Positions 4,871 through 32,384 of a DNA stretch of 34,126 nt are shown piece after piece. The translations under genes were made by a program, and so were the position numbers. Every line of letters begins with the position of its first letter. The stretch's first letter is position 1. The stretch comes from Candidatus Goldiibacteriota bacterium (GTDB lineage: Bacteria > Oederibacteriota > PGYV01 > DYJU01), in the NCBI GenBank assembly GCA_938034975.1, contig CALHNI010000024.1, positions 1-34,126 on the forward strand. The letters run 5' to 3'. The notes under the pieces were generated by a model. That model had not been told where the DNA came from, ran no database searches, and saw only the letters and a program-made list of their open reading frames with translations.

Positions 4871-7800
4871 ATGCATAGCATATTTTTTTTTATTTCAATT
4901 TTATTTTTTAATTTATCTTTGTTTGCTGTTCAGGATTTAAAAGATAATACAATTAATACCAGGTTAACTATTGAAAATTATGTTTTTAAAGGACCTGAAA
5001 ATTTAAAAGCAGAGGTAAATGGAATAAAGGTAAAATTAAAATGGGATCCGATTAATTTGCCCAATATAAAATATAATATATACAGAAGCACAGAAGAACA
5101 AGGAGAATATTTAAAAATAAATAAAGATGAAATAAGTGGAAATGAATATCTTGATACAAAGAAAAACAGTATATTTCCATTATTAAGTGGTATTAAATAT
5201 TTTTATAAAGTATCTGCTGTTGATTCGGAAAAGGAAATAGGAGAATCAAATATAGTATTTGCCATACCAACAGGTAAACTTTCTCCTCCTGAAGAAGTAA
5301 ATGTAATACCATTTACTGATAAAATTTTAATAAAATGGATAGAACCGGATTCAAGTGGTGAGTATGAAATTGCAGGTTATAATATTTTCAGATCAATAGA
5401 TGAAAAAGATTCAGGAATAAAAATAAATGATGAATTAATAAAGGAATATGAATATGAAGATAAAAATATTGAACAGGGATTAAAATATTTTTACAGATTA
5501 CAAAGTGTTGATGTTAAGGGTAATACTTCTGAACTATCCAATGTATATGAAACAATGCCTTTTGTGCCGGTTTCTGAGCCGCTTGATATTACAGTGCAGG
5601 CAAAATCAAGTGAGAGCATAAAAATCAGTTGGTTAGAACCTGATATAAAGGGTTCTTATGGTATAGCAGGTTATAATATATTCAGGAGTGAAAATCCTGA
5701 TTCTTTTCCTGAAAAACCAATCAATATAAAATTAATAAAACAGTATTATGATGAAGCCGGACGTATTTTTTATTATGATAATATAATAAACAGTATTGAA
5801 CCGCCACAACCAGGAAAAAATTACTATTATAAAATTGTGCCAATTGATACCAATGGCAATACAGGAGTTGCAAGTAAAGTAGTTAGTGGCACTATAGAAC
5901 TTTTAAAATTAAAAAAAACAGGAATAATATCCGGGGAAATTTCTGAATTTGGGTTACCACCGGAATCTAATTTAACAATAACAGGAAGTAAACAAATACA
6001 GCTTTCATATAAACATATATTTTCAGATAATGCCATAGAACAATCAAGATTTGATATAACACAACCTTTAAAAGTCAGAGTAATAGGGAATATAGGAAAA
6101 AAAATAACGGTAGAAGTTGACCATGATGATAGCAGAACCCAGGACGAACAAAGAAAAATATCAATAAAATATCAGGGAGAAAAAGAAGAAACAGTTCAGG
6201 AAGTTAATTTTGGAGATATAACTCTTGATATTCCGGCAACGAGATTTGTTAGTTTTTCCCAATCACTGTTTGGTATAAATGCAAAAATAAAATTGGGTGA
6301 GAAATTTACACTTTCTGCTATAGCAGCACAGACAAAAGGTATAACAGCAATCCAGACATTTAAAGGGAATTTGCGGGAAAAAGAAGTAAATGGTAAAAAA
6401 GGAATTTACATCTCTGATATTGATTTCATTAAAAATACTTATTATTACATAACAAAAGAAAACGTTGAAATAAAACCTGGCTCAGTTGTTGTTTACATGG
6501 ATAATGCAAATATAAATGATTATAATATAAATACAAAAAAGTCATATCCTACAGGAAAATTTGATTTTGACCTTTTAATTTTAGGTACTGATTATACGGT
6601 TGATTATAAAAATAAAATAATTAAATTTAATATCCCGATTTATGATCATTATATAATTGCGGTTGCTTTTGAAACTTTAGATGGCAGAAAAATCGGGTTT
6701 GACGCAAGTGGTGCTTTTGATTTTAATGAAGCAAATTTGATTTCTGAGCAAAATGGCATAACATCTGAATATATGCATTTAATTCAGGATGGAACAATGC
6801 AAAATCCAAAAGACATTTCTCATAAGGTTTTAAGTTTTTATTATCTTGGTGATACACAGATTTATAATCCAAAGATTGACAAGGATTTTGTGATAAAAAT
6901 ATATGATATGTCAAATAAAGAATATTACATCCCGTATCCAACGCATCCTGATGCAGATAAATGGTATGAGATAGATACAGATTTTGGGTTATTAAAATTT
7001 AAAAGTTATTTTCCGTTTAAATATCCAAATAATTCGCCTTGCGATCCGGCAACAAGCAATACAAGGATAGGCACAGAAGATGACGCATATAATACCCAGC
7101 CACCGGTAAATTCAAGGTTTAAAATTTATTTAGAATACAAATATTATGTTTCTTCTTTTAAACTTGATTATCCAAGTGTTGTTTATGGCAGTGAAAAGAT
7201 TTTTTTAAATGGCCGGCTTTTAAGAAAAGACATAGATTATTATATATTATATGAAACAGGGGAAGTTACTTTTATTGACAAAAATTTAATTCAGCCGGAT
7301 TCTGAAATTGTAATTGTTTATGAGTATTTCCCTTTTTTTCAGGCGTTTCCAAGTAATTTATATGGTGCCAGGGCAGAATATAAACTTTTTGATAATTTAT
7401 CTATGGGTACAACTTTTCTTTACAAAAGCGCTAATTCAAGCAGTCAGATTATACCTGATGCGCGCTCTACTTATCAGGGTCTTTCAACTCCTTACAGAAT
7501 GTATATATTGGATGGTGATATAAAATTTGATTTAAAAAAAGAACAGATAAATAAGATTCTGGATGTTTTGCCTTTTATTGAAGATTCAAAAATTCCTGTT
7601 GATTTTTCTTTTCAGGCAGAAATGGCGCATAGCAATTTTAACCCTAATATATTTGATAAGCATAATGAACATGGGGTTGCAATGATAGATAATATAGAAG
7701 GCGCTGATAATATAATAAGCACATCAATGGATAAAAATTACTGGTTCCCTGCAAGCAGACCACAGGCATCTGATATTTCATCAGGGGAAAGAATACAGAT

Positions 7801-10800
7801 AAGTAAATCAAATATAACTGATATTGATCCTGCACCAAGCGCCGGTTCGGATATTTACGGAACTTCAAGCAGGAAAATAATGTTGCAGTTTAATTATAAC
7901 AATTTAACAAGTTCAAAATGGGATGCTTACAGGTATTTAATCTCATCTTATGGTGAAAATTTAAATAATTATTCATATATTGATATGTGGGTGTATACAA
8001 CCCAGCCAATTGAGATCGGGGTTGACCTTGGTGTAATTAGTGAAGATTCAAATGGTAATTCGGTGCTTGATACAGAAGACAAACATGGTGGCAGACCAAA
8101 TGGTATTTTAGAAAGTGACGAAGATACAGGCATAAACCAGTCAAATGATGAATATTGGGGGGCAAGAAATACCTATTTGGATACAGAGGATATGAATAAT
8201 AATGGTATACTTGATACACTTGATGCTTATTATCAATACAGAAAACAAATTACAGAAACAGGTAGATGGATAAATTTAAAAATAGATTTGAAGAAAATAG
8301 GTGAATTTACAGGATATAATGTTTCTTTAGACCCGGCTTCAAAAAATTTTTTATCACTGGTAAAACATGCAAGATTGGTTATAAGGGGAGTTTCGGGAAG
8401 TCCTGTAAACGGATATGTAAAAATAGCGTCCATTGATTTTACAGGAAATTCATGGGTTTTAAAAGTTATGCCAAATTCTTATGACAGGGTGGGAAACAGA
8501 ATTGATTCGCCTGATGTTAATAAATTTAACCTGTCAACAGTAAATAAATATACAGATTCTTCTTATGTCCCAAATGTGAATTTTTTTGAGTATCAAAGAG
8601 AAGAAGATAAAAAATCTGAAAAAGCCTTGAAAATAACTTATAATCAGTCTAATTACGATTTAAGTGCTGATGGAAAAGCAATTTACTTTGCAACTAAAGA
8701 TTTAAGCAGAAGTATTGGTTTTGATTATCAGCCATTTAAAAAATTAAGGTTTGATATCTTTTATTCAAAAAAAGATGGTAGTTCTGGTTCGGGCAAGATA
8801 TTTTTTATAAGATTAGGGACAGGAACATCGGATGATAATAATTATTATCAGTATAATGTTCAGTTAGATGATGTTCCTTCTGATGGAGTGTGGCATACTG
8901 TAGAATTAAAATTAGATGGTTCTGATAAAAAAAGAAGTGCACCTTACGGTAATCCCAATTTGCGTCAGATAAATTATATAACAATAGGTGTTATAAATCC
9001 AAATTCAATGCCGGCAAATGAAATTTTTTATGTTAATAATTTTAGATTAACTGATCCAGATGAAAAGTTAGGATTGGGAAAATACACAAATGCTGTAATT
9101 AATTATTCTGGTTTTGGAAGTGTTTCGCATTCATATCAAGAAATAGAAAGTGATTTTATAACAATTGCCGATGTTGGCAGAACAATGGTAAAGCAACATT
9201 CCAGGAAAAATACAATTAATTTTAATTATAACCAGATTTCATTTTTACCTGTAAGGAATTCATTTAGAAGAGAAGAATTATTTACAGAGGAAAAATATCG
9301 TGAAGATCCTGAATATACAAGTAATTATATTATACCTGATACGGTTATTGAAGAATTTTTAAATTCGGGCTCGTTTAATTTGATTCCAAATTTTACATTA
9401 TCAAATAATATTACTTTAAATAAAACCAAAAACAGATATATAAAAATTTATACCTATCAGGATTATGATTATGAAAAATTCAGAATTGCTCCTTATGCCC
9501 GTTATTCTGTCCCGGATCAGATACAATTACCTGCTGATTTGAAAATACCGCTTGGAAATAATACTGTAGAAAGCAACCTTGCTGTAGTTAATGAAAAATG
9601 GGATTATATTCAGCCTGAATCAATAATATCTAACTTTAACTATAACTATTATGATAAATGGGAAATGACAAGGGAGCAAAATTATAAATGGACAGGCAAT
9701 TATACAATTGACAGAATAAATTTAACAACCGACTATCAATACGGCTTATATGAGAAAAAGGGGAATTTATTAGGCAGATATATTTATTACCTTGATAGAA
9801 TAAGTCCTGATAAATATTATACAAGTGATTATATCTTATTAAAGCGTTCCATAATGCCTTCTTTATCTTTATCTTTGGGAGAGATTTTACTTTTTAATCC
9901 GCAAATATCTTATAAATCAAATTATACAATGGATTATTCAACGATGAGTTTATTGACATCCGGAGATTTTTCTTTTATGACAAAGATAGAGTTAAAAAAG
10001 ATTCTGGATATATTGCCGAATATAAGCACTTATAATGTAAGTATCAGTTTAAATGAAAATTATAACGATACTTATTATTCAGATTCTATAGAAGGATATA
10101 ACAAATTGCCATTTGAATCAAAATGGTTTTTAAATTCCTGGGAAAACATATTCAACAGCAGCAAAATAGAAGAATTAGAAAAATTATCTTATAATGGTTC
10201 TTTCAGATTAAGTCATGACCTTAATTTTTCTGAAATAAAATTTTTTGATAGATTTTCTTTTACGCCACGTGGTAGTTTGAGTATTTACAGAAGTTCTTAT
10301 TCAAGGATTTTAAATACATTTACCAATACGATAAATTTAAGTATTTTTAATATGCAGGTTCTTAATGTCAGTATTCCCGGACTTGAGAGATTTTTCAGAA
10401 ATGAAACATTAACAGGGAACTATATTTATTCTGACACAAAAACAATAGATCCGGTTAATAAAAAGGATGTAATTAATGAAACCATAAGTCACAGTGCAGA
10501 TATTACATTAAATTTCAAGGATAATGATGCATTGGAAAATCCTTTAACAGGGAGACTTGGTATTTCTTATAGTAAAAAGGATACACAAAACAGACAAATT
10601 TTTATATGGATGTATACACTGGAACCAAGATTCCAGTTAAATTACTTTTTTAAATTTAATGAACCAATGCTGATTCCTTCATGGATGCCATGGATTGGAG
10701 GGAAAGCATTTAAATTGGAACAAGTATTACAATGGAAAAATATTTTATCTGTTTTTATAACGAGAGGCGATGATGTGGGTGGAGTGCGAGCAAATAAGCA

Positions 10801-10966
10801 ATCAAATGAAAAATACAAAGCAGAAACAGGATTTACATATAATTTTTTGGAAAATGTTGAATCCAATTTTTCACTAATTTATGAAAATAATGTTGATAGA
10901 GTGCGGGATGTGAAATATAATTATAGTTCGCTACAGATAGTCCTTTCAGTAACTGCATATTTTTAA
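4871..10966 (+). CDS. SprA/Sov-like giant outer-membrane protein with N-terminal FN3 domains (T9SS translocon family)
   Basis: 2031 aa with a signal peptide (about 1-19). Residues about 40-340 hold three fibronectin-III-like domains (repeated YNIFRS...YFYK.....V patterns). From about 350 the sequence follows the surface SprA/Sov family: SGEISEFGLPPES; a beta-rich stretch with VNFGDITLDIPATRF and SQSLFGINAKIKLG (about 445-475); the VDYKNKIIKF and ILYETGEVTFID elements; and GARAEYKLFDNLSMGTTFLY (about 832-851). Two Asp/Asn-rich motifs (DSNGNSVLD, about 1059; DMNNNGILD, about 1107) resemble calcium-binding loops. The C-terminal part is strand-rich and ends in aromatic F, as outer-membrane barrels do. 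In Bacteroidota SprA forms the T9SS export pore. Length is close to the family's 2000-2400. FN3 domains at the N-terminus are unexpected there. Translation probably couples to the preceding stop; only a weak AGGAAA (4853-4858) is present. Confidence 0.78.
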   Translation: MHSIFFFISILFFNLSLFAVQDLKDNTINTRLTIENYVFKGPENLKAEVNGIKVKLKWDPINLPNIKYNIYRSTEEQGEYLKINKDEISGNEYLDTKKNSIFPLLSGIKYFYKVSAVDSEKEIGESNIVFAIPTGKLSPPEEVNVIPFTDKILIKWIEPDSSGEYEIAGYNIFRSIDEKDSGIKINDELIKEYEYEDKNIEQGLKYFYRLQSVDVKGNTSELSNVYETMPFVPVSEPLDITVQAKSSESIKISWLEPDIKGSYGIAGYNIFRSENPDSFPEKPINIKLIKQYYDEAGRIFYYDNIINSIEPPQPGKNYYYKIVPIDTNGNTGVASKVVSGTIELLKLKKTGIISGEISEFGLPPESNLTITGSKQIQLSYKHIFSDNAIEQSRFDITQPLKVRVIGNIGKKITVEVDHDDSRTQDEQRKISIKYQGEKEETVQEVNFGDITLDIPATRFVSFSQSLFGINAKIKLGEKFTLSAIAAQTKGITAIQTFKGNLREKEVNGKKGIYISDIDFIKNTYYYITKENVEIKPGSVVVYMDNANINDYNINTKKSYPTGKFDFDLLILGTDYTVDYKNKIIKFNIPIYDHYIIAVAFETLDGRKIGFDASGAFDFNEANLISEQNGITSEYMHLIQDGTMQNPKDISHKVLSFYYLGDTQIYNPKIDKDFVIKIYDMSNKEYYIPYPTHPDADKWYEIDTDFGLLKFKSYFPFKYPNNSPCDPATSNTRIGTEDDAYNTQPPVNSRFKIYLEYKYYVSSFKLDYPSVVYGSEKIFLNGRLLRKDIDYYILYETGEVTFIDKNLIQPDSEIVIVYEYFPFFQAFPSNLYGARAEYKLFDNLSMGTTFLYKSANSSSQIIPDARSTYQGLSTPYRMYILDGDIKFDLKKEQINKILDVLPFIEDSKIPVDFSFQAEMAHSNFNPNIFDKHNEHGVAMIDNIEGADNIISTSMDKNYWFPASRPQASDISSGERIQISKSNITDIDPAPSAGSDIYGTSSRKIMLQFNYNNLTSSKWDAYRYLISSYGENLNNYSYIDMWVYTTQPIEIGVDLGVISEDSNGNSVLDTEDKHGGRPNGILESDEDTGINQSNDEYWGARNTYLDTEDMNNNGILDTLDAYYQYRKQITETGRWINLKIDLKKIGEFTGYNVSLDPASKNFLSLVKHARLVIRGVSGSPVNGYVKIASIDFTGNSWVLKVMPNSYDRVGNRIDSPDVNKFNLSTVNKYTDSSYVPNVNFFEYQREEDKKSEKALKITYNQSNYDLSADGKAIYFATKDLSRSIGFDYQPFKKLRFDIFYSKKDGSSGSGKIFFIRLGTGTSDDNNYYQYNVQLDDVPSDGVWHTVELKLDGSDKKRSAPYGNPNLRQINYITIGVINPNSMPANEIFYVNNFRLTDPDEKLGLGKYTNAVINYSGFGSVSHSYQEIESDFITIADVGRTMVKQHSRKNTINFNYNQISFLPVRNSFRREELFTEEKYREDPEYTSNYIIPDTVIEEFLNSGSFNLIPNFTLSNNITLNKTKNRYIKIYTYQDYDYEKFRIAPYARYSVPDQIQLPADLKIPLGNNTVESNLAVVNEKWDYIQPESIISNFNYNYYDKWEMTREQNYKWTGNYTIDRINLTTDYQYGLYEKKGNLLGRYIYYLDRISPDKYYTSDYILLKRSIMPSLSLSLGEILLFNPQISYKSNYTMDYSTMSLLTSGDFSFMTKIELKKILDILPNISTYNVSISLNENYNDTYYSDSIEGYNKLPFESKWFLNSWENIFNSSKIEELEKLSYNGSFRLSHDLNFSEIKFFDRFSFTPRGSLSIYRSSYSRILNTFTNTINLSIFNMQVLNVSIPGLERFFRNETLTGNYIYSDTKTIDPVNKKDVINETISHSADITLNFKDNDALENPLTGRLGISYSKKDTQNRQIFIWMYTLEPRFQLNYFFKFNEPMLIPSWMPWIGGKAFKLEQVLQWKNILSVFITRGDDVGGVRANKQSNEKYKAETGFTYNFLENVESNFSLIYENNVDRVRDVKYNYSSLQIVLSVTAYF

Positions 10967-10980
10967 TAAATGGAGGATTT

Positions 10981-13900
10981 ATGAAGTTGTTTAAAAAATT
11001 TGTCTATACAGCGATTATATGTTTTATACCAATTTTTTTATTTTCTGAAATTTTACCGCCGTCTTCTGTTATTCCTGTAAGATGGAATGATGGGGTTGAA
11101 ATTATTTGGAAAGATGCCATATCTACAACGACAGTTGCAAATTATATTATTTATAGAGCAACATGGGAAAATTTGAGTGAAACCTATTATGGCATTACTT
11201 TTTCTACAGGGACAAATGTGACCCGCTATGTGGACAGTTTAATAAACACCTATGAAACTTATTTTTACGCTGTTCAGACAGCTGATATTTTAGGAAATAC
11301 AAGTGTCTTATCAGGTATAGTTCCTTGTTTTCCTTACAACCTTACTATTACTGCGTTTAATTCAAAAAATTTTTTAAAATGGAACAGTCAGATTATAAAT
11401 GTGAGTGGTTTTAATATTTATCGGAGCACAGCAACTAATGGAAATTTTTCAGCAATTGCTTTAACAAAAACATCAAATGAATATTTAGACAGCGAAGTTG
11501 TAAATGGCTTTACCTATTATTATAAAATAGGAGCAATATACAATTCTTCTGAAGCACCTTTATCATCAACAAAATCTGCAACACCATTTGTGCATCCTTT
11601 TAAACCTGAAAAATTATCCTATACAGTATCTGTTGATATTTCAGGAAATACAAATGTAATAATTACCTGGTCTGCTGAAAATATAACAGGAACTTATCCT
11701 GTGAATGGTTTTAAAATATACAGGTCATTGATTTATGATGATGAAAGTGATTTTTCTGGTTTTTCAACTTCAACTGGTTATATTAATACAATACCAGATT
11801 CTGGTTATAAATACTACTATAAGATAAAAACAGTGGATATAAAGGGTAATACATCAATTCCTGCATATTTTTCAGTTTATATAAGTGGAAAACCATCTTC
11901 GCCTTTAAATCTTACAATTACATCAATTGCCCTTGATTCTGTAAACCTTTCCTGGTCAGCAAATTCAAGTTATGAAAATGTAACTGCTTATGTTGTTTAC
12001 AGGTCAACTTATGAGCAAATTGGAATTACATCTTTTAATTTTTTTACCGATAATATAACTTTAACCCCAGGGGCAACAATCAATTATCATATAAGAGCAC
12101 TTAATGCTTATGGTTTAAGCGATTTTTCAAACGCGGTAACCTGCACAATAAAACCAAAACAACCGGTAAATTTTAGTATAACCCAGGGCGAACCAGATAA
12201 AGTAAAATTAAAATGGGATGCAAATGGTATAAATGAAAATATAAACATATATAATATTTACAGAGTTGAACCGCCTTCATCAATTGATCTTAACAATCCT
12301 TATTATATTTTGATAACAGATACAGTATCTGGAAACATAGAATTTACTGATGTTTCTGTGAATACCAGCACATTTTATTGTTATGCTGTAGCAGCAGTAA
12401 CTTTTAGTTCATCGCCTGAATATGTGACAGGAAATGCATCATCACCTTTTTATATAACACCTGTTTCAATACCATCAATACCACAAAATTTAACAGTGAC
12501 CGCATTTAACTCTTATGTTTTACTATCATGGGATAAAAATAATGAAAAAGAAAAAATTATAGCATATAATATTTTTAGGAGCACAGATGAAATTTTTTAT
12601 TCTAATATTACACGCGTATCTCAAAATTATCATTATGATTCAGGGCTTAATACGTATACATGTTATTTTTATAAAATAAATGCGGAAAATTACCTTGGCT
12701 GGTCATCAACTTTAACTGCCTATATTTCTGTAACGCCATATGCAGTAAATTTTATAGACAGACCAAAAAACATAACATTATCATCAAAAGGTGATGGAAA
12801 TTTATTTTTGCAATGGAATGCTTCAAGACCAGAGGATAATGTTATACAGTATAATATTTACAGGTCAACCGTATCTGGTATTTATGGTTCTACTCCATAT
12901 TCATATACAAGTGTAACTTATTATGTGGATGTATCTGTTACTGCGGGTAATCAGTATTACTATATATTAACAGCTTTAGGTTTAACTGAAAGTGCAGCAT
13001 CAGATGAAATAGTTGGAGTTCCATTTATAAAACCATATCCGCCAACTAATATAAATTTAAGTAACATTCATAATAAAGTTTTAATTACATGGAATAACCC
13101 TGTTGCCAAAGGGACTTATCAAAATATAAATCAATTTAATATTTACAAAAGCACATCCCCAGCTAATTTTATTTTACAAAAATCAAAAACAACGGATAAT
13201 TATTATATTGACAGTTCTGTAAACACTAATTTTTCATATTATTATAAAATAAAATCTGTTGATAACAATGATAATGAGGATTCTTCAGAAACATATTATA
13301 CTATAAATTTGATTAATACTTCTTCACCACCCAAAACACTTATTGCTTATGCTGGTGAAAACTGGGTAACTATAAACTGGCAACGGGTTACTTTAACAGC
13401 TGATTCTTATAATATTTATAAAAGCACAGTATCAAATTATTATATAGAACCATATATTTATTCCTTAAACGTTAATACTTATAAAGAATACACTGATTAT
13501 AATGTTCAAAGAGGGGTAACATATTATTATGTCATAACTGCTGTAAATTCAGCTGGAGAAGGCCCAAAATCAAATGAAGTAGAAATTACACCTTATATGA
13601 CAGTAAAATTGCCTGACAACCCTTATATAAGATATACAATAGAAAATAAAAAAGATATTCATCTTTTCTGGGATAAAGCCAAAGATGGTGATTATGCAGT
13701 TATTGGTTATAATGTTTTAAGAAGTAAAGACGGCGGAGCGTATTATGAAACACTTGGTTTTGTAACAGCCACGGCATCACCGGATTTTTTAGATGATAAA
13801 ACAGAATGGAATAATATTTATTATTACATGATAAAGACCGTTGATTCTAAATTAAATCAGGATACAACCTATCCAATTTTAAAAGTTGAGTTACCCAGAC

Positions 13901-14211
13901 CAGAAAATAAAATAAGGATTTTTTCCAATCTTTTTGATTTAAGTAAAAATGAAAAATTAAAATTAAAATATCAGGTAATAAAAAGCGGAAAAATAAGAGT
14001 AAAAGTTTATACATTGAGCGGTATTTTTGTTAAGACGTTATTAGAAGAAGATGTTCCAGAAGGTATTTCTTATGAAAATCCTTTTGAAAGTCAGGATTTT
14101 TACTGGGACGGGAAAAATGAATCTGGTGAAAAAGTAGCAGCCGGAGTTTATATTATTTTACTTGAAACCAATGATAAAAAAGTTTTAGCAAAAGTTGCAG
14201 TTGTAAAATAA
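10981..14211 (+). CDS. Secreted multi-fibronectin-III protein with FlgD-like / T9SS type-A-like C-terminal domain
   Basis: 1076 aa. A signal peptide (about 1-23) is followed by about ten tandem FN3-like domains of 85-105 residues. Each shows a core W, then YNIYRS or a variant, and ends in YYYKI.....D..GN (boundaries near 24, 118, 205, 300, 391, 500, 592, 685, 785, 880). The last 100 residues (about 975-1076) form a FlgD-Ig-like domain: VKVYTLSGIFVKTL, then FYWDGKNESGEKVAAGVYII and a final AKVAVVK strand. That layout matches type-A C-terminal sorting domains of T9SS cargo. TGGAGG (10972-10977) precedes the ATG. It lies 14 bases after the SprA-like gene, and I infer it is a surface protein exported by that pathway. 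No catalytic domain is visible; an adhesin or sheath role is a guess. Confidence 0.75.
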   Translation: MKLFKKFVYTAIICFIPIFLFSEILPPSSVIPVRWNDGVEIIWKDAISTTTVANYIIYRATWENLSETYYGITFSTGTNVTRYVDSLINTYETYFYAVQTADILGNTSVLSGIVPCFPYNLTITAFNSKNFLKWNSQIINVSGFNIYRSTATNGNFSAIALTKTSNEYLDSEVVNGFTYYYKIGAIYNSSEAPLSSTKSATPFVHPFKPEKLSYTVSVDISGNTNVIITWSAENITGTYPVNGFKIYRSLIYDDESDFSGFSTSTGYINTIPDSGYKYYYKIKTVDIKGNTSIPAYFSVYISGKPSSPLNLTITSIALDSVNLSWSANSSYENVTAYVVYRSTYEQIGITSFNFFTDNITLTPGATINYHIRALNAYGLSDFSNAVTCTIKPKQPVNFSITQGEPDKVKLKWDANGINENINIYNIYRVEPPSSIDLNNPYYILITDTVSGNIEFTDVSVNTSTFYCYAVAAVTFSSSPEYVTGNASSPFYITPVSIPSIPQNLTVTAFNSYVLLSWDKNNEKEKIIAYNIFRSTDEIFYSNITRVSQNYHYDSGLNTYTCYFYKINAENYLGWSSTLTAYISVTPYAVNFIDRPKNITLSSKGDGNLFLQWNASRPEDNVIQYNIYRSTVSGIYGSTPYSYTSVTYYVDVSVTAGNQYYYILTALGLTESAASDEIVGVPFIKPYPPTNINLSNIHNKVLITWNNPVAKGTYQNINQFNIYKSTSPANFILQKSKTTDNYYIDSSVNTNFSYYYKIKSVDNNDNEDSSETYYTINLINTSSPPKTLIAYAGENWVTINWQRVTLTADSYNIYKSTVSNYYIEPYIYSLNVNTYKEYTDYNVQRGVTYYYVITAVNSAGEGPKSNEVEITPYMTVKLPDNPYIRYTIENKKDIHLFWDKAKDGDYAVIGYNVLRSKDGGAYYETLGFVTATASPDFLDDKTEWNNIYYYMIKTVDSKLNQDTTYPILKVELPRPENKIRIFSNLFDLSKNEKLKLKYQVIKSGKIRVKVYTLSGIFVKTLLEEDVPEGISYENPFESQDFYWDGKNESGEKVAAGVYIILLETNDKKVLAKVAVVK

Positions 14212-15982: not shown

Positions 15983-15985
15983 ATT

Positions 15986-20189: not shown

Positions 20190-21617
20190 ATGTGGTTTGA
20201 AAAAATGGGAATATATGGTATGCAGGATATAGAAGATATAATAATAGCAGGGATTGCCATAGGCGATCCTGTTTTACTTATTGGTTCGCATGGCACTGCC
20301 AAGACAACTTTGTGCAGAAAACTTGCAGAATCTTTAAATCTTAAATTTCATGCTTATGATGCATCAAAAGCATTATTTGAAGATATAATAGGTTTTCCTA
20401 ATCCTGATTCTATATCAAAAGGTAAAATTGAATATGTCCCAACTACACTTTCAATCTGGGATAAAGAATTTATTTTAATAGATGAAATATCCCGTGCAAG
20501 GGCTGAATCACAGAACAAATGGTTGGAAGTTATAAGAAGCAGAAAGATTATGGGCTTAAAAATAGAGTGTTTAAAATATGTATTTGCTGCAATGAATCCT
20601 CCTTCTTATCTGGGGGCAAACCCACTTGATGAAGCGCTTGCAGGAAGATTTACTTTTATAGTCAAAATACCTACTGTTGTTGAAATGAAAGTAAATGACG
20701 TATGTGAAATAATAAATAACATAAATGAAGATGATGGCAGAGCTTTAGCACAAGGTAATGAAAAAAAATTGAATAAAAAAGATAAAGAAGAATTTAATAA
20801 ATTCATAGTTGCTATAAGAAGTAAAATAAAAGAGTTAAATAAGGATAAAGACTTAAATTTGGATATTGATAGTTATTTAATAAAATTCATGCGTTTTGCT
20901 GATACAAAAGGACTTACAATTGATGGCAGGCGACTTAATATGGCGAAACGTAATATTTTAGCGTATATTTCAATATTACTTTTAAAAGATAAAAATTTGA
21001 AACTTGATTTTAAAAATTTAAGCGATCATATATTTTATGCAATGAAACATACAATGCCTTTTAATGCTTTTGATGCTGATTTTACAGATATAAAAATAAG
21101 ATATTTGCATGATATATCTTTTGATTTCGTTGATGATAAAATAATCGGAGGTGTATTTAACATAAAAACCGTTGAAGATGTAATGCAGTTAGATAATTAT
21201 GCAATTTCCAGGAACTACCCGGCTATTAAATCAGTGATTACAAAAATAATTAGCAATATAAAAGGCCCGGATAATATGGAAAAAAAGCCATTATATATTA
21301 AAATTTTAAGATCATTGATAAAGAGAATATGTGATGGTGAAATAAAACTTGAAAATAATGATATTGAAAGGTTATTTGAAACTTATAAATATTTATTTGA
21401 TATGTCATTTATTAATGATTATAAATATTCTGGATTACAATTTTATGCTGAAAATCTAATCCAGGGGAATATTGAAAATGATAAAAATGATATTGATATA
21501 TTTAAAATAGTCTATAACTTATTAAGAAATGAAAGACAGGATATAATTGATGAATTTAAATTAAAAAAATCTTTAAAAATATTTAAAGATTTTTTTTATA
21601 AAGAAAAGGAGGATTAA
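20190..21617 (+). CDS. MoxR-family AAA+ ATPase
   Basis: 475 aa. The Walker A is GSHGTAKTT (32-40), the Walker B FILIDEIS (about 94-101, D98/E99), followed by the MoxR-type sensor stretch AAMNPPSYLGANPLDEALAGRF. The region after about 270 is a helical extension without a domain I recognise. MoxR ATPases usually act as chaperone-like partners of VWA proteins, and a VWA gene lies two genes downstream. GAAAGGAGAG (20175-20184) precedes the ATG. It opens a compact three-gene unit whose next ATG follows this stop directly. The gene is preceded by its own candidate promoter and operator. Confidence 0.9.
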   Translation: MWFEKMGIYGMQDIEDIIIAGIAIGDPVLLIGSHGTAKTTLCRKLAESLNLKFHAYDASKALFEDIIGFPNPDSISKGKIEYVPTTLSIWDKEFILIDEISRARAESQNKWLEVIRSRKIMGLKIECLKYVFAAMNPPSYLGANPLDEALAGRFTFIVKIPTVVEMKVNDVCEIINNINEDDGRALAQGNEKKLNKKDKEEFNKFIVAIRSKIKELNKDKDLNLDIDSYLIKFMRFADTKGLTIDGRRLNMAKRNILAYISILLLKDKNLKLDFKNLSDHIFYAMKHTMPFNAFDADFTDIKIRYLHDISFDFVDDKIIGGVFNIKTVEDVMQLDNYAISRNYPAIKSVITKIISNIKGPDNMEKKPLYIKILRSLIKRICDGEIKLENNDIERLFETYKYLFDMSFINDYKYSGLQFYAENLIQGNIENDKNDIDIFKIVYNLLRNERQDIIDEFKLKKSLKIFKDFFYKEKED

Positions 21618-22727
21618 ATGAAAGTTGCGGCATTTAAAAAAATTTTAGAATACAAAGGAACTACTGCATATGAGTGTGTTGAAATTTCGCTTCAAATTTA
21701 TGAAGTTGTTGATAAGTTTTATGTTGGACATTCAATTCTTGGTGGTGAACATTTTTTTTATAAAAAATTAAAGGGAAGAGAATATACAATAATTGATGAA
21801 GAATATAATTTTGGATATAGATTCAGAAGGAAATTAATTGCGAAAGATAAAATGGTAATTCCACTAAAAATAAATAATAAAACGAGAATGATAAAAGGGA
21901 TTATTTTATATGAATCAAAAAAATCAATGATAAAATTTTTAAAAAAATATATTGATTTTTCAAAAAATTGTTATTTTAATGAATTAATTAAAGAGTGTAA
22001 AGGGATTAATGGGAAACCAAATTTAGAACTATTTTTTGAAAGAATAGAAGAATATAGATATTTTGAGTGGAGAGATACATTTATTGAAATAGAAAAAAAA
22101 GATAGAACAGAAATGTATAATTATTATTTCGAAAATAATAATACTTATATTATGAATAAATCCGGATTAGAAAATACGCAAAGGATTTTTGCAATTGAAA
22201 CAAAAAGAGAAATAGATGGTTATAATGTGCCAGAAATTAATTATATTTATCAAGGAATAAAAGATAAAAAAGAATATATAGTAACTTATTTTAATGGTCA
22301 AATAAAAACATATGAAAATTTTTATAATATAAATCCTGTAATCTTAAAAAATATTGACCAATCAGGAAAAATTTATAATACTTCATATGTTGACCTTTTG
22401 CCCGATAATTCAAGAGAAGTATTTGCAATATTAAGAATACCGACAAAAAAAGAATATGCCAAATATAAAAGTAAAAGTAAAAGTAAAAGTAAAAAAACAA
22501 ACAATGATAATTATCAAATACTAAATAAGATTTTTTATGTTTCTCCATCATTAAAAGCATGTAACATTAAACCGGGTGTTAGAGTAATAGATGATATAGA
22601 TATATTTCGCCAAATAATATCAAAAATTAGTTCGGATATCTATATTCCTGGGAATATGAGTATAGAATTTAATGAGGAATTATTACCGGATGATGAGCAA
22701 TTTTTGTTATTGGAAAAACCGGTTTGA
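21618..22727 (+). CDS. Unknown protein of the MoxR/VWA module
   Basis: 369 aa, soluble, no signal peptide or transmembrane helix, rich in Lys, Asn, Tyr and Ile. I do not recognise any domain. It begins directly after the MoxR stop with AAGGAGG (21606-21612) inside the end of that gene, and lies 12 bases before the DUF2201-type gene, so the three are surely co-translated. Residues about 284-292 form a K-S dipeptide run encoded by a perfect (AAAAGT)x4 repeat. Its position suggests an adaptor, substrate or effector for the ATPase/VWA pair. The composition is even more AT-biased than the flanking housekeeping genes. Confidence 0.6.
   Translation: MKVAAFKKILEYKGTTAYECVEISLQIYEVVDKFYVGHSILGGEHFFYKKLKGREYTIIDEEYNFGYRFRRKLIAKDKMVIPLKINNKTRMIKGIILYESKKSMIKFLKKYIDFSKNCYFNELIKECKGINGKPNLELFFERIEEYRYFEWRDTFIEIEKKDRTEMYNYYFENNNTYIMNKSGLENTQRIFAIETKREIDGYNVPEINYIYQGIKDKKEYIVTYFNGQIKTYENFYNINPVILKNIDQSGKIYNTSYVDLLPDNSREVFAILRIPTKKEYAKYKSKSKSKSKKTNNDNYQILNKIFYVSPSLKACNIKPGVRVIDDIDIFRQIISKISSDIYIPGNMSIEFNEELLPDDEQFLLLEKPV
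22467..22490 (+). repeat. Hexanucleotide tandem repeat (AAAAGT)x4
   Basis: Four perfect AAAAGT units inside the 21618-22727 gene encode alternating Lys-Ser. The unit length is a multiple of three, so slippage would change protein length and not reading frame. Probably a flexible linker. Confidence 0.85.
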
Positions 22728-22739
22728 CAGGAATTTAAA

Positions 22740-24089
22740 ATGGATATTAAACATCCTGATGAAATACAGATGTATATAAATCAATTTATCTTAGAAACCA
22801 AAATACCTTTTCTTATTGAACAAATTTATAAAATAAAATCAAACTGGTATTTTCATTTTACGGAATATGACTCCAATATAAAAACAGCTGCGGTGATAAG
22901 ACGTGATTATTATGTATACGATATTTTTTTTAACCGGAATTTTTTAAAAGAACACGTAAAGAATAAAAACGATCTGGTTTTTGTCTTTTTGCATGAATTT
23001 TTCCATATAATAAACGGGGATCTTTTAAGGGATATGAAGTATTGGAAAGCAAGAAAAGTAATAACAAATATTATTTTTGACATAAAGATAAACAGTGAAA
23101 TCTTAAAAAATTATTCAAAAAATGGTTATCATTTTTTAAGGAGATTTTACAAAAATACAAAAAATGTATTTAATTTACTTCTTTACCCTTTATTTGAATA
23201 TTCTGATCTTGAAGATAATTCAATATTTGAAAATGGAGAAAAACAATTAGAGATTGTAAAAAAAATAGAAAATATGAAATTTGAAAATGAAGATATTATA
23301 AAAGATAAAAAGAAATTGGCAATGTGGTATATAAATGCCTGGTTTAAGAATTTTTCATTAGATATGCTTTTAAAAAGCATTGAAGAAATTTTAAAAATAA
23401 ATACTGTTTTTATTGACGTGGTTTTAATAGGTAATCATAATAATTATTTTAAAAAAGATGAAGTTAAAAAAGAAAAAATCATTATTGACGAATTTGTAGA
23501 AAAAGACAATAGAAATGCAATAATAAATATAGTAAAAAAAATACTTGAAGAAGATGGTGAAAAGTTAATAATTGATAAGTTTATAACAACACGAAGAGGT
23601 GTCCTCCCTAATTTGGGCAGGCGTGAAACTTTTTTTATTGCAGGAGGTGTTTATCCTTTTTTTTTCAAAAATTTGGTTGTTGATGATGATGAATTTTATA
23701 AAAACACACACATTTATATTGATGTTTCAGGATCGGTATTAGAAGAATTACCTTTTATATATAAACTGATAGAATCAATAAAGTTATATATAAGCGAACC
23801 TATATATCTTTTTTCTACTAAGATAGAAGAGATAAGTATTGAAGAATTAAAAAATGGCGAAATAAAAACAACCTATGGCACAGATTTTAATTGTGTTATT
23901 TTACACGCTATAAATAATAATTTTAAAAAAATATTAATAATAACAGATGGGCGGGGAAGTATATCAGATGATAATATCGTATTTGCAAAAGAAAAGAATA
24001 TAGAAATATTCGTTATATTAACTACAAATAAATATAAAAATCCGTTTGAAATAATTGCTAAAAAAACCTGGTTAATAATAGATAATTAA
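22740..24089 (+). CDS. DUF2201-type protein: putative HExxH metallopeptidase domain plus VWA-like domain
   Basis: 449 aa. The N-terminal half carries a zinc-protease-like HEFFH (H85, E86, H89) within FVFLHEFFHIINGD. The C-terminal half (from about 320) is a VWA-like domain with a MIDAS motif DVSGS (D328-S332), a downstream YGTDFN threonine and ITDGRGS. This arrangement matches the DUF2201_N/DUF2201 family, whose genes commonly sit beside MoxR ATPases. CAGGAA (22728-22733) precedes the ATG. Whether the HExxH is active is unknown; no clear third zinc ligand can be assigned by eye. It is the last gene of the module and is followed by repeat DNA. Confidence 0.8.
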   Translation: MDIKHPDEIQMYINQFILETKIPFLIEQIYKIKSNWYFHFTEYDSNIKTAAVIRRDYYVYDIFFNRNFLKEHVKNKNDLVFVFLHEFFHIINGDLLRDMKYWKARKVITNIIFDIKINSEILKNYSKNGYHFLRRFYKNTKNVFNLLLYPLFEYSDLEDNSIFENGEKQLEIVKKIENMKFENEDIIKDKKKLAMWYINAWFKNFSLDMLLKSIEEILKINTVFIDVVLIGNHNNYFKKDEVKKEKIIIDEFVEKDNRNAIINIVKKILEEDGEKLIIDKFITTRRGVLPNLGRRETFFIAGGVYPFFFKNLVVDDDEFYKNTHIYIDVSGSVLEELPFIYKLIESIKLYISEPIYLFSTKIEEISIEELKNGEIKTTYGTDFNCVILHAINNNFKKILIITDGRGSISDDNIVFAKEKNIEIFVILTTNKYKNPFEIIAKKTWLIIDN

Positions 24090-24147
24090 AATACATAAAT
24101 ATTATTATATACAAAAAAAGGCGTTATAAAAAACACATCTTTAATTT

Positions 24148-24210: not shown

Positions 24211-24213
24211 CGA

Positions 24214-25801: not shown

Positions 25802-25822
25802 AAAATCAAAAAGGAGGATAAA

Positions 25823-26095
25823 ATGGGAAAGAAAGATAAAATAAGAAAACCTATTCAAAATATTGAGAAAGAAGAATTTACTTTAAAGGATTATTTTTAT
25901 ATTAATTTGATTTTCTGGGCATTTTTATTTGTGCTTGCAATATTGGTTTTTTTTACAACCGGTGGACAATGGGATCCGGTAATGAAAAATGTTTTTACTT
26001 TCATATTTCTTGTATTTGGTGGCGGTTTTACTGTTGTTTCAATTTTTGATTATATATATGAAAGGGTAGCAGGAAAAGATGCAACGAATAATTAA
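25823..26095 (+). CDS. Small membrane protein of unknown function
   Basis: 90 aa: a charged N-terminus (about 1-25), then two hydrophobic helices (about 29-48 and 55-75) with a GGQWDP turn between, and a short charged tail. I recognise no family. AAAGGAGG (25810-25817) precedes the ATG, 21 bases after the dehydrogenase gene. Its last 17 bases overlap the next gene, so the two are likely made together. Confidence 0.65.
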   Translation: MGKKDKIRKPIQNIEKEEFTLKDYFYINLIFWAFLFVLAILVFFTTGGQWDPVMKNVFTFIFLVFGGGFTVVSIFDYIYERVAGKDATNN

Positions 26096-26741: not shown

Positions 26742-26757
26742 AAAGGGTAAAATAAAA

Positions 26758-27612: not shown

Positions 27613-27772
27613 ATAATTTGAAAAATGCAATATGGTTTGGGTTTTTCAGATGAGAAAAAATATATTTCTTTAATTAAAAAAGGTGAAAAAATTGATGAGT
27701 AATAAAAATAAAAATGTTTTGTTTATCCGTAAAAAAGTGTTTACTAACGCGTTTTTACGGGAGGATTCTTAA
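27613..27772. other. yicC-gmk intergenic region with one hairpin
   Basis: 160 bases without a supported gene. A 25-codon frame (27625-27702, starting MQYGLGF) lacks a ribosome site and any resemblance to RemA/DUF370. The only ordered feature is the palindrome at 27727-27760. Confidence 0.6.
27727..27760. promoter_or_regulatory. Solo hairpin B abutting the gmk ribosome binding site
   Basis: The arms CCGTAAAAA and TTTTTACGG, with an imperfect inner stem, form the same palindrome type that ends the dispersed repeats. The last G of the right arm starts GGAGGAT, the gmk Shine-Dalgarno. Folding in mRNA could limit ribosome access or end transcription early; alternatively it is only the remnant of a repeat copy. 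Confidence 0.55.
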
Positions 27773-28351
27773 ATGGAAAAAGGAATTATTTTTGTAATTT
27801 CCGGACCTTCTGGTTCAGGAAAAAGCACTATTATAAACAGATTTATGGAAAAACATAAAAAAGATTTTTTTCTTTCTATATCAGCAACAACACGCCAGCC
27901 AAGAAAAGGAGAAGTAAATGGTAAAGATTATTTTTTTTATGAAAAAAATAAATTTATATTGGATATGAAAAAAAATAAATTTATTGAATATGCAAAAATA
28001 CTTGATAATTTTTATGGAACACCAAAAGGGCCAATATTTAATAATATAAATAAAGGAAAAAATGTTATAATGGATATTGATGTTCAGGGCGCAAGAAAGA
28101 TAAAAGAAAAATTAAAAAATTGTGTTACAATTTTTATTATGCCGCCTGATTTTGATGAACTTGAAAATCGTTTGAGAAAAAGAAAAACAGATTCGGAAAA
28201 AAGTATTCAAAAAAGATTAAAACTGGCAAAAAAAGAATTGAAAGAAAGAAAAAATTATGATTATATAATAATAAATAATGATATAGAAGAAACAGTTAAT
28301 ATCATTGAAAATATTGTTAAACTGGAAAAATTTAAAAGGTATAAAATTTAA
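27773..28351 (+). CDS. gmk: Guanylate kinase
   Basis: 192 aa, phosphorylating GMP to GDP with ATP. The P-loop is GPSGSGKST (11-19). The GMP-binding region SATTRQPRKGEVNGKDYFF (about 37-55), IEYAKILDNFYGTP and MDIDVQGARKI (about 101-111) are all present. GGAGGA at 27760-27765 sets the start. It sits between yicC and rpoZ, a widespread arrangement, and rpoZ follows after 15 bases. Confidence 0.97.
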   Translation: MEKGIIFVISGPSGSGKSTIINRFMEKHKKDFFLSISATTRQPRKGEVNGKDYFFYEKNKFILDMKKNKFIEYAKILDNFYGTPKGPIFNNINKGKNVIMDIDVQGARKIKEKLKNCVTIFIMPPDFDELENRLRKRKTDSEKSIQKRLKLAKKELKERKNYDYIIINNDIEETVNIIENIVKLEKFKRYKI

Positions 28352-28366
28352 AGGAGGTAGTATAAA

Positions 28367-28594
28367 ATGAAAAAAATTGATTACGGGATTGATGATTTAG
28401 AACAAAGAATACCCAATAAATATGCCGCAATTATTGCAATAGCAAGCAGAGCCAAAAAAATACTTGATAATCCTGGAGATGTAGATGAAAGTTTAAGAAA
28501 AAATAAACCTGTGGTAGCAGCTATATTGGAATTTATGCAGGATAAATTAAAATATCCTGAATTTAATATTAAAAAAATAAATGAAGAGGATTAA
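28367..28594 (+). CDS. rpoZ: RNA polymerase omega subunit
   Basis: 75 aa. It has the omega signature: DDLEQRIPNKYAAIIAIASRAKKI (about 9-32) and KPVVAAILEFMQDKL (about 46-60). Omega aids assembly of the beta-prime subunit. A strong AAAGGAGG (28350-28357) precedes the ATG. The position between gmk and coaBC supports the call. Confidence 0.9.
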   Translation: MKKIDYGIDDLEQRIPNKYAAIIAIASRAKKILDNPGDVDESLRKNKPVVAAILEFMQDKLKYPEFNIKKINEED

Positions 28595-28600
28595 TTAAAA

Positions 28601-29767
28601 TTGGCAAAAATTTTACTAGGTATAACCGGGAGTATTGCCGCATATAAAGCATGCGATATCATTCGTGAGTTAAAAAAAAAAGATAATGAAATAATTTGTG
28701 TTTTAACTGCTTCAGCGAAAGAATTTATAACTCCTTTAACTCTTGCAACTTTAAGTGAAAATCCTGTTTATGATGATATGTTTTATTTAAGTAAAAATTA
28801 TTCATTAAAAATCCAGCATATTGACCTTTCGCGTAATAGTGACTTAATTTTAATTGCTCCAGCTACAGCAAATATAATAGGTAAAATTGCATCTGGAATT
28901 GCAGATGATCTGTTAACAACTATTATAATGGCAAGCAAAAAACCTGTTTTATTTGCACCAGCTATGAATGAAAATATGTGGAATAATCCAATTGTTAAAG
29001 AAAATGTGGAAAAATTAAAAAAACTTGGTTATAAATTTATAGAACCTAAAAAAGGGTTGCTCGCTTGTGGTGATTACGGTGAAGGGCATATAGAGGATAC
29101 AGAAAAAATTGTAAGAGAGACACTTTTTTTATTAAAAAAAAAAACATTAAAAAATAAAAACGTTCTTATTCTTTCAGGTCCGACAATAGAAAAAATAGAT
29201 GATGTTCGTTATATAACCAATGCTTCTTCAGGTAAGACAGGTTATTTTCTAGCTAATGAAGCAAAAGCACGGGGAGCCAAAGTAACTTTTATAACCGGTA
29301 AAACAGTTTTTTTTCCGGATGTTGATATTTTGGAAAAGGTAGAATCAGCAGAAGATATGTTTAAAGCAGCAGTTAAAAATTTTGATTGGGCTGATATAAT
29401 AATAGGTGCTGCAGCGGTCGGGGATTTTACTGTGAAAAAAATTTCAGGAAAAATTTCAAGAAAAAAAGAAATAAAACTGGATTTAAAACCAACAAAAGAT
29501 ATTTTGGAATTTTTAGGGAAAAACAAACAAAATAAAAAAATTATTGGGTTTTCAGCAGAGGTTGGAAATAATTTAAATAGAGCAAGAGAAAAATTAAAAA
29601 GAAAAAATCTGGATTTTATTGTGATTAATGATATTAGCAGAAAAAATTATGGCTTTGAGTCAGATTATAATAATATAACTATTTTAAATAATAAAGGCAA
29701 AGTAATTTTTAAGGGTGGTGGAACAAAAGAAAATTTAGCATGTAAAATTTTAGATTGTATTGAATAA
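28601..29767 (+). CDS. coaBC: Bifunctional phosphopantothenoylcysteine decarboxylase / phosphopantothenate-cysteine ligase
   Basis: 388 aa covering two steps of coenzyme A synthesis. CoaC domain (1 to about 185): ITGSIAAYKACDIIRELK, catalytic H73 in KIQHIDLS, PAMNENMW, and C156 in LACGDYGEGH. CoaB domain: SGPTIEKIDDVRYITNASSGKTG, AAAVGDFTVK and LKPTKDIL. The start is TTG at 28601, six bases after the rpoZ stop; it is the codon directly before the conserved AKILLGITGS, with GAAGAGGA (28583-28590) upstream. No ATG exists at a plausible place. Confidence 0.95.
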   Translation: MAKILLGITGSIAAYKACDIIRELKKKDNEIICVLTASAKEFITPLTLATLSENPVYDDMFYLSKNYSLKIQHIDLSRNSDLILIAPATANIIGKIASGIADDLLTTIIMASKKPVLFAPAMNENMWNNPIVKENVEKLKKLGYKFIEPKKGLLACGDYGEGHIEDTEKIVRETLFLLKKKTLKNKNVLILSGPTIEKIDDVRYITNASSGKTGYFLANEAKARGAKVTFITGKTVFFPDVDILEKVESAEDMFKAAVKNFDWADIIIGAAAVGDFTVKKISGKISRKKEIKLDLKPTKDILEFLGKNKQNKKIIGFSAEVGNNLNRAREKLKRKNLDFIVINDISRKNYGFESDYNNITILNNKGKVIFKGGGTKENLACKILDCIE

Positions 29768-29782
29768 AAAAAGGGACTTTAA

Positions 29783-31384
29783 ATGAAAAAATTTTTTACT
29801 TTTATGATTATTTTAAAAGTGAGTTTTTTATACCTTTATGCTGAAGTTGTGGATATTAAAAAAATGCCTTTGTATAAAGATGAGATTATTGTCAAATATA
29901 AAGATAATTTAGAAAATGACACACTTGATAAATTAGGGGAAAAATATAAAAAAAAATTTGCCACAAAAGAAGAAGCTGTTTATTTTATAGAAAAAAAATA
30001 CGGACTTTTGATTAAAAAAAATTATTTAAAGAATATTCCTTTTGTATGCTATAAAATACCTAATATTAATTTAATGGAAAGTTTAATAAAGGAAATTTCA
30101 GGGGAAGAAATAGTAGAATATGCAGAACCTAATTATTTAAGATATGCTTTATATACTCCGCTTTCAAAACCTGATGATCCATATTATCAGTCAGGCAATT
30201 TGTGGGGATTCAACAGGATTAAGGCAGATTATGCTTTGAATAATATGGTTTTTGATGTCTCTAAGAATAAAAAAATTATAGTAGCAGTTATTGATACGGG
30301 AATTGGATGCGGAAATAATTGCTTTCATGAAGATTTACAGGGAAGAACAGTAAATGGTATTAATATGCTTAATCTTGCGGAAGCGCCATATGACGATGGT
30401 ATAGATTTAGGGCATGGAACTTTTGTTGCAGGGATTATTGCAGCAAATATAAACAACACAGCTGGCGTTGCAGGAGTTACTTTGTGTAATTTAACTTATA
30501 CGGCAAATGTTTTAGTTATGCCAGTAAAAGTATTAAATTCAGAAGGTGAAGGTAATGATGATATTGTGTATTCAGGTATTGTATGGGCAGCAGATAATGG
30601 GGCACATGTATTAAATTTAAGTTTTGGTGGGAAAGAAGACAGTATAACTTTAAGAAATGCAATAAATTATGCTTATTCTAAAGGTTGTGTAATTGTTGCG
30701 GCTGCTGGTAATTCAGATACATATACATTTTATCCGGCTGCATACTCAAATGTAATAAGTGTTGGCGCATCCGGAATATTAGATAAAAAAGTAAATTTTT
30801 CAAATACAGGTAAAATAGATGTTTGTGCACCCGGAGAAAATATATATAGCACTGATAATAAACTTTCATGTTATAAATATTCTCTATCAAGTGGAACATC
30901 ATTTGCAGCACCATTTGTAAGTGGACTTGCTGCTTTACTTTTGTTACTTAATGAAAATTTAACTCAGCAACAGGTAAGAAATTTAATAGAACAAACCTGC
31001 GATGATATTGAAGAACCAGGGTTTGATAATAAAACAGGATGGGGGAGAATAAATGTATATAGAGCATTACAAAGGGATTTAAGTAAAGTTTCTGGTATAA
31101 AAACATATAATTGGCCAAATCCTTTTTCACCAGAAAAAGATTTAAATACAAATATAGAAATAATATTAAATGAAATTATTGATATAATAATTGAAATTTA
31201 TGATGCCGGAGGAGATCTTGTCTGGAAAAGAGAAATAAAAAAAAATGAGTTAAACTATGGTCATAATACTATTTTATGGAATGGTAAAAATATGTCCGGC
31301 AAAAGGGTAAATAACGGAATCTATTTTTATGTAATAAAAAGTTCAAAAGTAATAGGTAAAAATAAAATAGCTGTGCTTTATTAA
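29783..31384 (+). CDS. Secreted subtilisin-family (S8) protease with FlgD-like / T9SS type-A-like C-terminal domain
   Basis: 533 aa: signal peptide (about 1-20), I9-type propeptide (about 30-115; DEIIVKYKD ... VEYAEPNYL), then the S8 catalytic domain with D171 (AVIDTGIG), H211 (GHGTFVAG), oxyanion N310 (AAAGNS) and S373 (GTSFAAPFVSG). Residues about 439-533 form a FlgD-Ig-like/type-A sorting-like domain: YNWPNPFSP, then ILWNGKNMSGKRVNNGIYFYVI and a last KIAVLY strand. The complete triad predicts an active protease. The C-terminal domain and the PorV-like gene 14 bases downstream suggest export by a T9SS-like route. It lies 15 bases after coaBC. Confidence 0.92.
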   Translation: MKKFFTFMIILKVSFLYLYAEVVDIKKMPLYKDEIIVKYKDNLENDTLDKLGEKYKKKFATKEEAVYFIEKKYGLLIKKNYLKNIPFVCYKIPNINLMESLIKEISGEEIVEYAEPNYLRYALYTPLSKPDDPYYQSGNLWGFNRIKADYALNNMVFDVSKNKKIIVAVIDTGIGCGNNCFHEDLQGRTVNGINMLNLAEAPYDDGIDLGHGTFVAGIIAANINNTAGVAGVTLCNLTYTANVLVMPVKVLNSEGEGNDDIVYSGIVWAADNGAHVLNLSFGGKEDSITLRNAINYAYSKGCVIVAAAGNSDTYTFYPAAYSNVISVGASGILDKKVNFSNTGKIDVCAPGENIYSTDNKLSCYKYSLSSGTSFAAPFVSGLAALLLLLNENLTQQQVRNLIEQTCDDIEEPGFDNKTGWGRINVYRALQRDLSKVSGIKTYNWPNPFSPEKDLNTNIEIILNEIIDIIIEIYDAGGDLVWKREIKKNELNYGHNTILWNGKNMSGKRVNNGIYFYVIKSSKVIGKNKIAVLY

Positions 31385-31397
31385 AAATGGAGAAACG

Positions 31398-32384
31398 ATG
31401 AGGTCTTTCGTAAATTTATTATTATTTATTTTAATCGCTATAAATTTAATGGGATATGGGGGACAATCATTTGCTTTTTTAAAAAATGATTTTGGAGTAA
31501 GGGCAGTAAGTATGGGAGGCAGTTTTGTGTCTTTGGCGGATGATGTTTCGTGCATTTATTATAATCCCGCAGGGCTTTTAAAATTATATGATTTGGAACT
31601 TTCAGCAGAAACACATATTTTAAGTTTTGGCAGAAATTTAAATTTTATAGCACTTGGCAGACCATTTGAAATAAATAAATTATATTATGCCACAGGTTTT
31701 TCCTGGATAAATTTTTCATCAGGTTCTGATATAGAAGAAAGAAGAACAAATTCTCCTGAACCTATAAGTACATTTTCAAATAATGCCAATGTTTTTATTT
31801 TTTCAACAGCAACCAGTATTATGAAAAATTTTTATATAGGTGGTAATTTTAAATTCTTATTTCAAAATATAAAAGATACCAAAGGCAGAGGAATTGGTTT
31901 TGATTTAGGTGTTTATTTTAGGATTTTTAATAATTTAAATGCAGGCTTTGCGTTACATAATATAAGCACGAATATAAATTGGGACAATTCATCACGTATT
32001 GAAACAGTTCCGCAATATTTTTTATGCGGATTTTCTTATGAGTTTAAAAATTTATCAGAATTAAAAGTTTTTGATTTGATAACAGGAATTGATTTTGTTT
32101 ATGAAGGTCCTGATTATTTTAAAATAAAAACAGGAAGTGAATTATTTATAAATAAATTTATCGCATTAAGAGCAGGGTATAATGGGGCATTAACTTTTGG
32201 ATTTGGAGTAAAACTTTTTATAACTGAAATTTTTACTATGGAAATTGATTATTCTTTTTTTAAGGATTTTATTTTGGAAGATGAATTTAATCACAGAATA
32301 GGTATTACTTTTGATTACATTTTCCCACATTGGGGAACCATAGACATGAATAAAAATGAAAAAGAAAATGCCAAAAAAAGTTGA
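31398..32384 (+). CDS. PorV/PorQ family outer-membrane protein
   Basis: 328 aa with a signal peptide (about 1-20) and a beta-barrel composition. The N-terminal GVRAVSMGGSFVSLADDVSC then IYYNPAGLL (about 35-63) is the hallmark of PorV/PorQ (UPF0164) proteins; a FadL-like barrel follows. In Bacteroidota PorV shuttles T9SS cargo from the SprA/Sov pore to the PorU attachment complex. It cannot be split from PorQ or orphan paralogues by eye. TGGAGAAA (31388-31395) precedes the ATG. It directly follows a protease with a sorting-like domain. Confidence 0.8.
   Translation: MRSFVNLLLFILIAINLMGYGGQSFAFLKNDFGVRAVSMGGSFVSLADDVSCIYYNPAGLLKLYDLELSAETHILSFGRNLNFIALGRPFEINKLYYATGFSWINFSSGSDIEERRTNSPEPISTFSNNANVFIFSTATSIMKNFYIGGNFKFLFQNIKDTKGRGIGFDLGVYFRIFNNLNAGFALHNISTNINWDNSSRIETVPQYFLCGFSYEFKNLSELKVFDLITGIDFVYEGPDYFKIKTGSELFINKFIALRAGYNGALTFGFGVKLFITEIFTMEIDYSFFKDFILEDEFNHRIGITFDYIFPHWGTIDMNKNEKENAKKS

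Follow-up and report, generated by a model that had tools for sequence, protein, structure and literature searches.

A divergent SprA/Sov protein and numerous, often cargo-paired PorV-type carriers suggest T9SS-like export in Goldbacteria, outside the FCB group

In the Goldbacteria lineage (Candidatus Goldiibacteriota/FCPU426), which sits outside FCB and beyond the groups with accepted type 9 secretion, an uncultured bacterium encodes a single divergent SprA/Sov-type outer-membrane protein, 27 PorV-like proteins and proteins that end in T9SS-type C-terminal domains (CTDs). We consider it probable (about 0.7), from sequence comparison, that this divergent SprA exports surface proteins and that each cargo, or small set of cargoes, has its own PorV-type barrel. 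Analysed as a whole, the predicted working is T9SS-like and most like the Type B branch. The sprA gene lies in a window of 34,126 nucleotides, the whole stretch of DNA that was analysed; this stretch corresponds to contig C24 in a MAG of 1.93 Mb and 84% completeness. The comparison set comprised 59 genomes, 45 from the same phylum and the remainder from other phyla. The features of the window are collected in Table 1, and the coordinates and lengths given in an earlier note for four of its genes (sprA, the two CTD protein genes and the PorV-type gene) are correct.

Table 1. Features of the analysed window, with positions counted from its first nucleotide.
Feature	Position	Strand	Basis
O-antigen ligase-like protein (Wzy_C/WaaL)	254..1438	+	Pfam PF04932 3.1e-25
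Glycosyltransferase family 9 (heptosyltransferase type)	1435..2544	+	Pfam PF01075 1.4e-37; conserved neighbour
221-aa protein, N-terminal helix and periplasmic LolA/YmcC-like beta domain	2562..3227	+	AF2, homologues
Methyl-accepting chemotaxis-type protein, directly upstream of sprA	3224..4870	+	Pfam MCPsignal 3.7e-36
SprA/Sov-type outer-membrane translocon, 2031 aa, single copy	4871..10966	+	TIGR04189, profile comparisons
Three fibronectin type III (FN3) domains, SprA N-terminus (about residues 42-340)	4994..5890	+	Pfam fn3 6.5e-10
Canonical SprA homology region (about residues 365-1550)	5963..9520	+	hhalign, 1101 aligned columns
FN3-repeat secreted protein (putative cargo), terminal T9SS-type CTD (13927-14208)	10981..14211	+	Pfam fn3, FlgD_ig
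S8 subtilase (putative cargo) with prodomain, C-terminal T9SS-type CTD (31118-31381)	29783..31384	+	Pfam Peptidase_S8 1.1e-48
PorV/PorQ-family carrier, 328 aa, 13 bp downstream of subtilase	31398..32384	+	NF033709, AF2 fold
GT4 glycosyltransferase overlapping carrier gene end	32356..33543	+	NCBIfam GT4 matches

The SprA/Sov pore proposed in the earlier note is borne out, and its homology and fold link it to canonical SprA: judged by its sequence, the product is a real but divergent SprA/Sov. It scores above the curated cut-off of TIGR04189 (211.9 bits against 200, E=1.1e-62, in four stretches), a profile built from 25 SprA homologues of the phylum matches Flavobacterium johnsoniae SprA (PDB 6h3i) at 9.6e-54, and, when aligned by hhalign with five canonical SprAs from other phyla, the phylum profile reaches a probability of 100 and E=5e-113. 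The C-terminal Phe is invariant across the 25 homologues. When single window proteins were searched against the PDB with phmmer, SprA and PorV were both missed, whereas alignment profiles recovered the two. The three N-terminal FN3 domains, which had been overlooked in the first reading of this DNA, match titin FN3 in phmmer; in families f8 and f16, without the FN3 part, SprA is shorter (about 1764-1809 aa), and the matches of Firestonebacteria to the window SprA begin at residue 360.

This type of SprA is present in 40 of the 45 same-phylum genomes, mostly at scores below the cut-off, and canonical-level scores with the SprA model are reached in only five of the 59 genomes (G045, G047, G050, G051 and G053). 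Its named relatives come from Candidatus Goldiibacteriota/FCPU426 and Firestonebacteria, and the nearest of all, at 75% identity, is encoded by a MAG labelled Candidatus Methylomirabilis (L078, DYJU01000001.1), a label that looks wrong. In a SprA tree made by a quick method, with some long branches, the phylum forms one clade within which its families group together, indicating that SprA was inherited in this phylum and not recently acquired.

The surroundings of sprA vary across these genomes. In several families of the phylum, sprA adjoins lptF-lptG in divergent orientation (L065, L072, L069, L070, L073 and L076), an arrangement also seen in two genomes of other phyla (L045 and L048). In other phyla, the gene after canonical sprA belongs to the M28 peptidase family (L045, L047 and L048), an assignment made by Pfam in L045 only, with the L047 and L048 genes clustering with that of L045; this gene is possibly a glutaminyl cyclase. 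In the order to which the window belongs, a counterpart of the O-antigen ligase-like gene is found upstream of sprA in eight genomes, and the 221-aa protein represents an unnamed, order-specific family with eight homologues, found in as many genomes ahead of sprA or of the MCP gene beside it. Its AF2 model (pLDDT 88.5) has one long N-terminal helix, a membrane anchor, and matches YmcC/LolA-like folds of the PDB weakly (best E=3.7e-5); with this fold, the protein was ruled out as a motor part. Only part of the order has the MCP-type gene directly before sprA (G000, G001, G002 and G012), and a chemotaxis gene cluster is found elsewhere in this genome (G000:C6, L055). Further into the window, a MoxR-type AAA ATPase gene is followed by genes for two proteins (369 and 449 aa) without a Pfam match (20190-24089). 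The GT4 gene downstream of the carrier has no match above its own cut-off among the NCBIfam matches listed.

The carrier encoded towards the end of the window exceeds the cut-off of NF033709 (93.4 bits against 90, 1.9e-26) and matches both the PorV_fam and PorQ models; no PorP/SprF match is present among the matches listed up to E=1. Its AF2 model (pLDDT 85.4) has as top fold match the PorV of the substrate-bound F. johnsoniae translocon (8gl6_F, E=2e-14), with TbuX and FadL ranking lower (FadL/TodX-type about 2e-9). Likewise, a PorV-family profile, which has four canonical PorVs among its members, finds PorV at 4.8e-38 and FadL/TodX-type proteins at 2.5e-8. Thus the carrier shares its barrel fold family with the FadL/TodX transporters, but is closer to PorV. 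The earlier note's assignment of this protein as PorV-like therefore holds, as does its reading as a PorV-type carrier, but not as a single shuttle, since it is one of 27 PorV-like proteins, many of them paired with a cargo. The PorV family occurs in all 45 phylum genomes, with 7 to over 30 matches in each, and every SprA-positive genome is also PorV-positive (45/45; Fisher p=1.6e-7 over the 59 genomes). Some PorV-type barrels are fused to FlgD-Ig (FlgD_ig) and OmpA domains (L149, L159 and L166) and are likely to combine carrier and peptidoglycan anchor in one protein; other carriers have TPRs or TPR-like tails (L161, L164, L167 and L151).

Both putative cargoes of the window have a CTD match at the extreme C-terminus (2.4e-27 for the FN3-repeat protein and 1.5e-23 for the subtilase), in agreement with the sorting-like C-termini noted earlier, and their export is predicted. 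The C-terminus of the subtilase is a CHU_C/Por_Secre_tail/FlgD_ig domain (CHU_C 4e-7) that reaches 22.6 bits with TIGR04183, slightly below the cut-off of 23. A counterpart of the FN3-repeat protein is encoded directly after sprA in genomes of the order and in families f9, f11, f12 and f15, as judged by synteny and C-termini. The CTD profile was built from 19 rows, which match TIGR04183 (15/19), Por_Secre_tail (12/19) and FlgD_ig (17/19), and it gives 66 matches genome-wide. Its alignments with PorU (PDB 6za2), RgpB and a CTD solved with the translocon (8glk_D) reach the last strand at profile positions 84-85, while those with flagellar FlgD Ig domains end at positions 72-76; alignment through the last strand therefore favours T9SS-type tails, with export remaining a prediction. 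Matches of the profile to WD40 proteins in the PDB were dropped, as no stretch passes by itself. Carrying a terminal CTD does not always mean export, because one such domain ends a membrane anti-sigma-like protein, encoded beside an ECF sigma factor and next to a PorV gene (L151:3048-4669, minus strand); this pair is possibly a sensor of export.

Carrier and cargo genes are paired well above chance. In this genome, a terminal-CTD gene on the same strand immediately precedes 11 of the 27 PorV genes, at distances of -25 to +61 bp, and the partner of the PorV gene on contig C4 was confirmed as a terminal-CTD gene. Fewer than one such pair is expected (p between 1e-13 and 3e-10) for 35-66 CTD genes among about 1900, the gene number being an estimate. 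The same is seen in distant families of the phylum, where 11 of 20 sampled PorV genes are so paired; among the other genes of those stretches, the figure is 3 of 101 (p=3.8e-8). For about half of the PorV genes, no CTD partner was detected. In the Type B system of F. johnsoniae, the cargo gene is followed by the gene of its own SprF-like shuttle (PMC12618676), and the many one-to-one pairs therefore point to a Type-B-like scheme, the downstream position of the carrier suggesting stoichiometric, dedicated carrier-cargo pairs. In contrast to the SprF/PorP-like shuttles of Type B, the Goldbacteria carriers belong to the PorV/PorQ family, the CTDs resemble type A/FlgD_ig, and some carriers bear OmpA or TPR domains of their own.

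From these components we infer a transport cycle, with its retention step and energetics. Sec would deliver the cargo to the periplasm, the C-terminal domain would enter the SprA pore, at whose lateral opening the docked cognate PorV-like barrel would bind it; the carrier-cargo pair would then pass laterally into the outer membrane. With the PorU sortase absent, the cargo would probably stay on its barrel. In F. johnsoniae, cargo is bound inside SprA by loops of the carrier, and freeing the pair takes energy and a motor (PMC10994853). Counting against the export model, a release motor of this type was not found with the GldL, GldM and GldN models in this genome, the CTD profile also matches the FlgD Ig domain, and the genome is an incomplete MAG.

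The PorU sortase (C25) is absent: PF01364 has no match in this genome, and the positive controls were good. The model finds C25 proteins in 11 of the 59 genomes, including 4 of the 45 in the phylum, none of which is a full PorU; full PorU is confined to G045, G047, G051 and G053, all of other phyla. Matches of this genome to the NF033707 'PorU' model cover only the CTD part, and were rejected as PorU. Since PorU was searched for and is absent, the system cannot be filed as a complete T9SS; the refuting condition set in the earlier note, applied to the missing PorU and the undetected GldL/M/N, gives the same outcome. Of the T9SS-like export that the earlier note had claimed, SprA, PorV-type carriers and CTD cargo are retained, whereas a complete T9SS is not, and canonical Type A fixing of cargo to A-LPS is unsupported, LPS-type neighbour genes being all that was observed in this respect.

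The distribution of C25 also weighs against an ordinary T9SS that cleaves its cargo and attaches it to A-LPS, its motor, ring and PorU-like sortase having escaped detection through divergence or by lying outside the recovered part of the MAG. This reading, which we regard as unlikely, draws on the WaaL and glycosyltransferase genes that flank sprA, on the position of sprA next to lptFG in other families and on the silence of the motor models: GldL, GldM and GldN give nothing over cut-off here, and their equal silence in relatives that have a canonical SprA and PorU may mean that the models do not reach beyond Bacteroidota. The GldM positive control in a related phylum gave no match, the GldN model is silent in all genomes searched, and a weak GldL match of this genome was discarded, as it falls among clustered chemotaxis genes and resembles a chemoreceptor-type coiled coil. 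Because the models are silent in the canonical relatives too, and no positive control matched, we make no claim of motor loss. The absence of PorU cannot be put down to MAG incompleteness, since completeness reaches 90% or more in many genomes of the phylum, and the carriers are numerous and paired, as opposed to the one PorV of Type A.

A further reading, that the SprA homologue and PorV proteins serve another outer-membrane task (e.g. lipid or LPS handling) and that the FlgD-like domains are only structural, would accommodate the divergent lptF-lptG neighbours of sprA, the FlgD_ig matches of most CTDs and the CTD on the anti-sigma-like protein, but is very unlikely given that the profile alignment runs along the channel region, that the carrier fold is closest to translocon-bound PorV and that the strong PorV-CTD gene pairing fits export.

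Two MotA/ExbB loci are present in this genome. One of them lies in an operon (L176, G000:C5:53500-72500, positions 1-13382) headed by a CTD cargo and a PorV-Ig carrier, which are followed by a 1032-aa TPR protein, ExbB, two ExbD, a TonB-like protein and an Ig protein. All nine genomes of the order that were examined share this arrangement of carrier, TPR protein and motor, the ExbB frame having been missed by the ORF caller in two, and the CTD cargo gene falls within the retrieved stretch in seven of the nine. FtsE/FtsX-type genes and an M23 peptidase gene lie downstream, for which reason the ExbB/ExbD/TonB operon may equally be the Tol-Pal system of this lineage. Within the preferred reading of SprA-dependent export on dedicated carriers, it is a tentative and on balance doubtful proposition that pore-carrier-CTD export runs outside FCB without the GldKLMN energy chain or PorU, perhaps energised by TolQR/ExbBD-TonB. 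If so, SprA-PorV-CTD transport would be older than Bacteroidota gliding, and the gliding motor would have been recruited later.

Compared with the Bacteroidota T9SS (SprA/Sov, PorV, PorU and GldKLMN), Goldbacteria share an SprA-type channel, a PorV-type carrier and putative cargo with a Sec signal and T9SS-type CTD, but differ in a divergent SprA with added FN3 domains, in about 27 carriers per pore, in lacking PorU/C25, in GldL/M/N being undetected and in lying outside FCB. The canonical sets of SprA, PorU and PorV in G045, G047, G051 and G053 likewise combine SprA with several PorV genes, many CTDs and silent GldM/N models; they differ in a full-length PorU (575-776 bits) and in a summed SprA model score of 625-775 bits where a sum is given. 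A 2024 paper describes T9SS as confined to FCB phyla, and a 2025 paper derives T9SS from Bacteroidota gliding; no report of T9SS in Goldbacteria was found in the literature searched, which did not extend to subscription papers. The Goldbacteria case bears on the FCB confinement, on the gliding origin and on the rise of type 9 secretion. With a vertically inherited, phylum-wide SprA, many paired PorV proteins, no PorU and no recognisable motor, it becomes testable which parts form the core of the system, what powers carrier release and whether one carrier per cargo preceded a general PorV.
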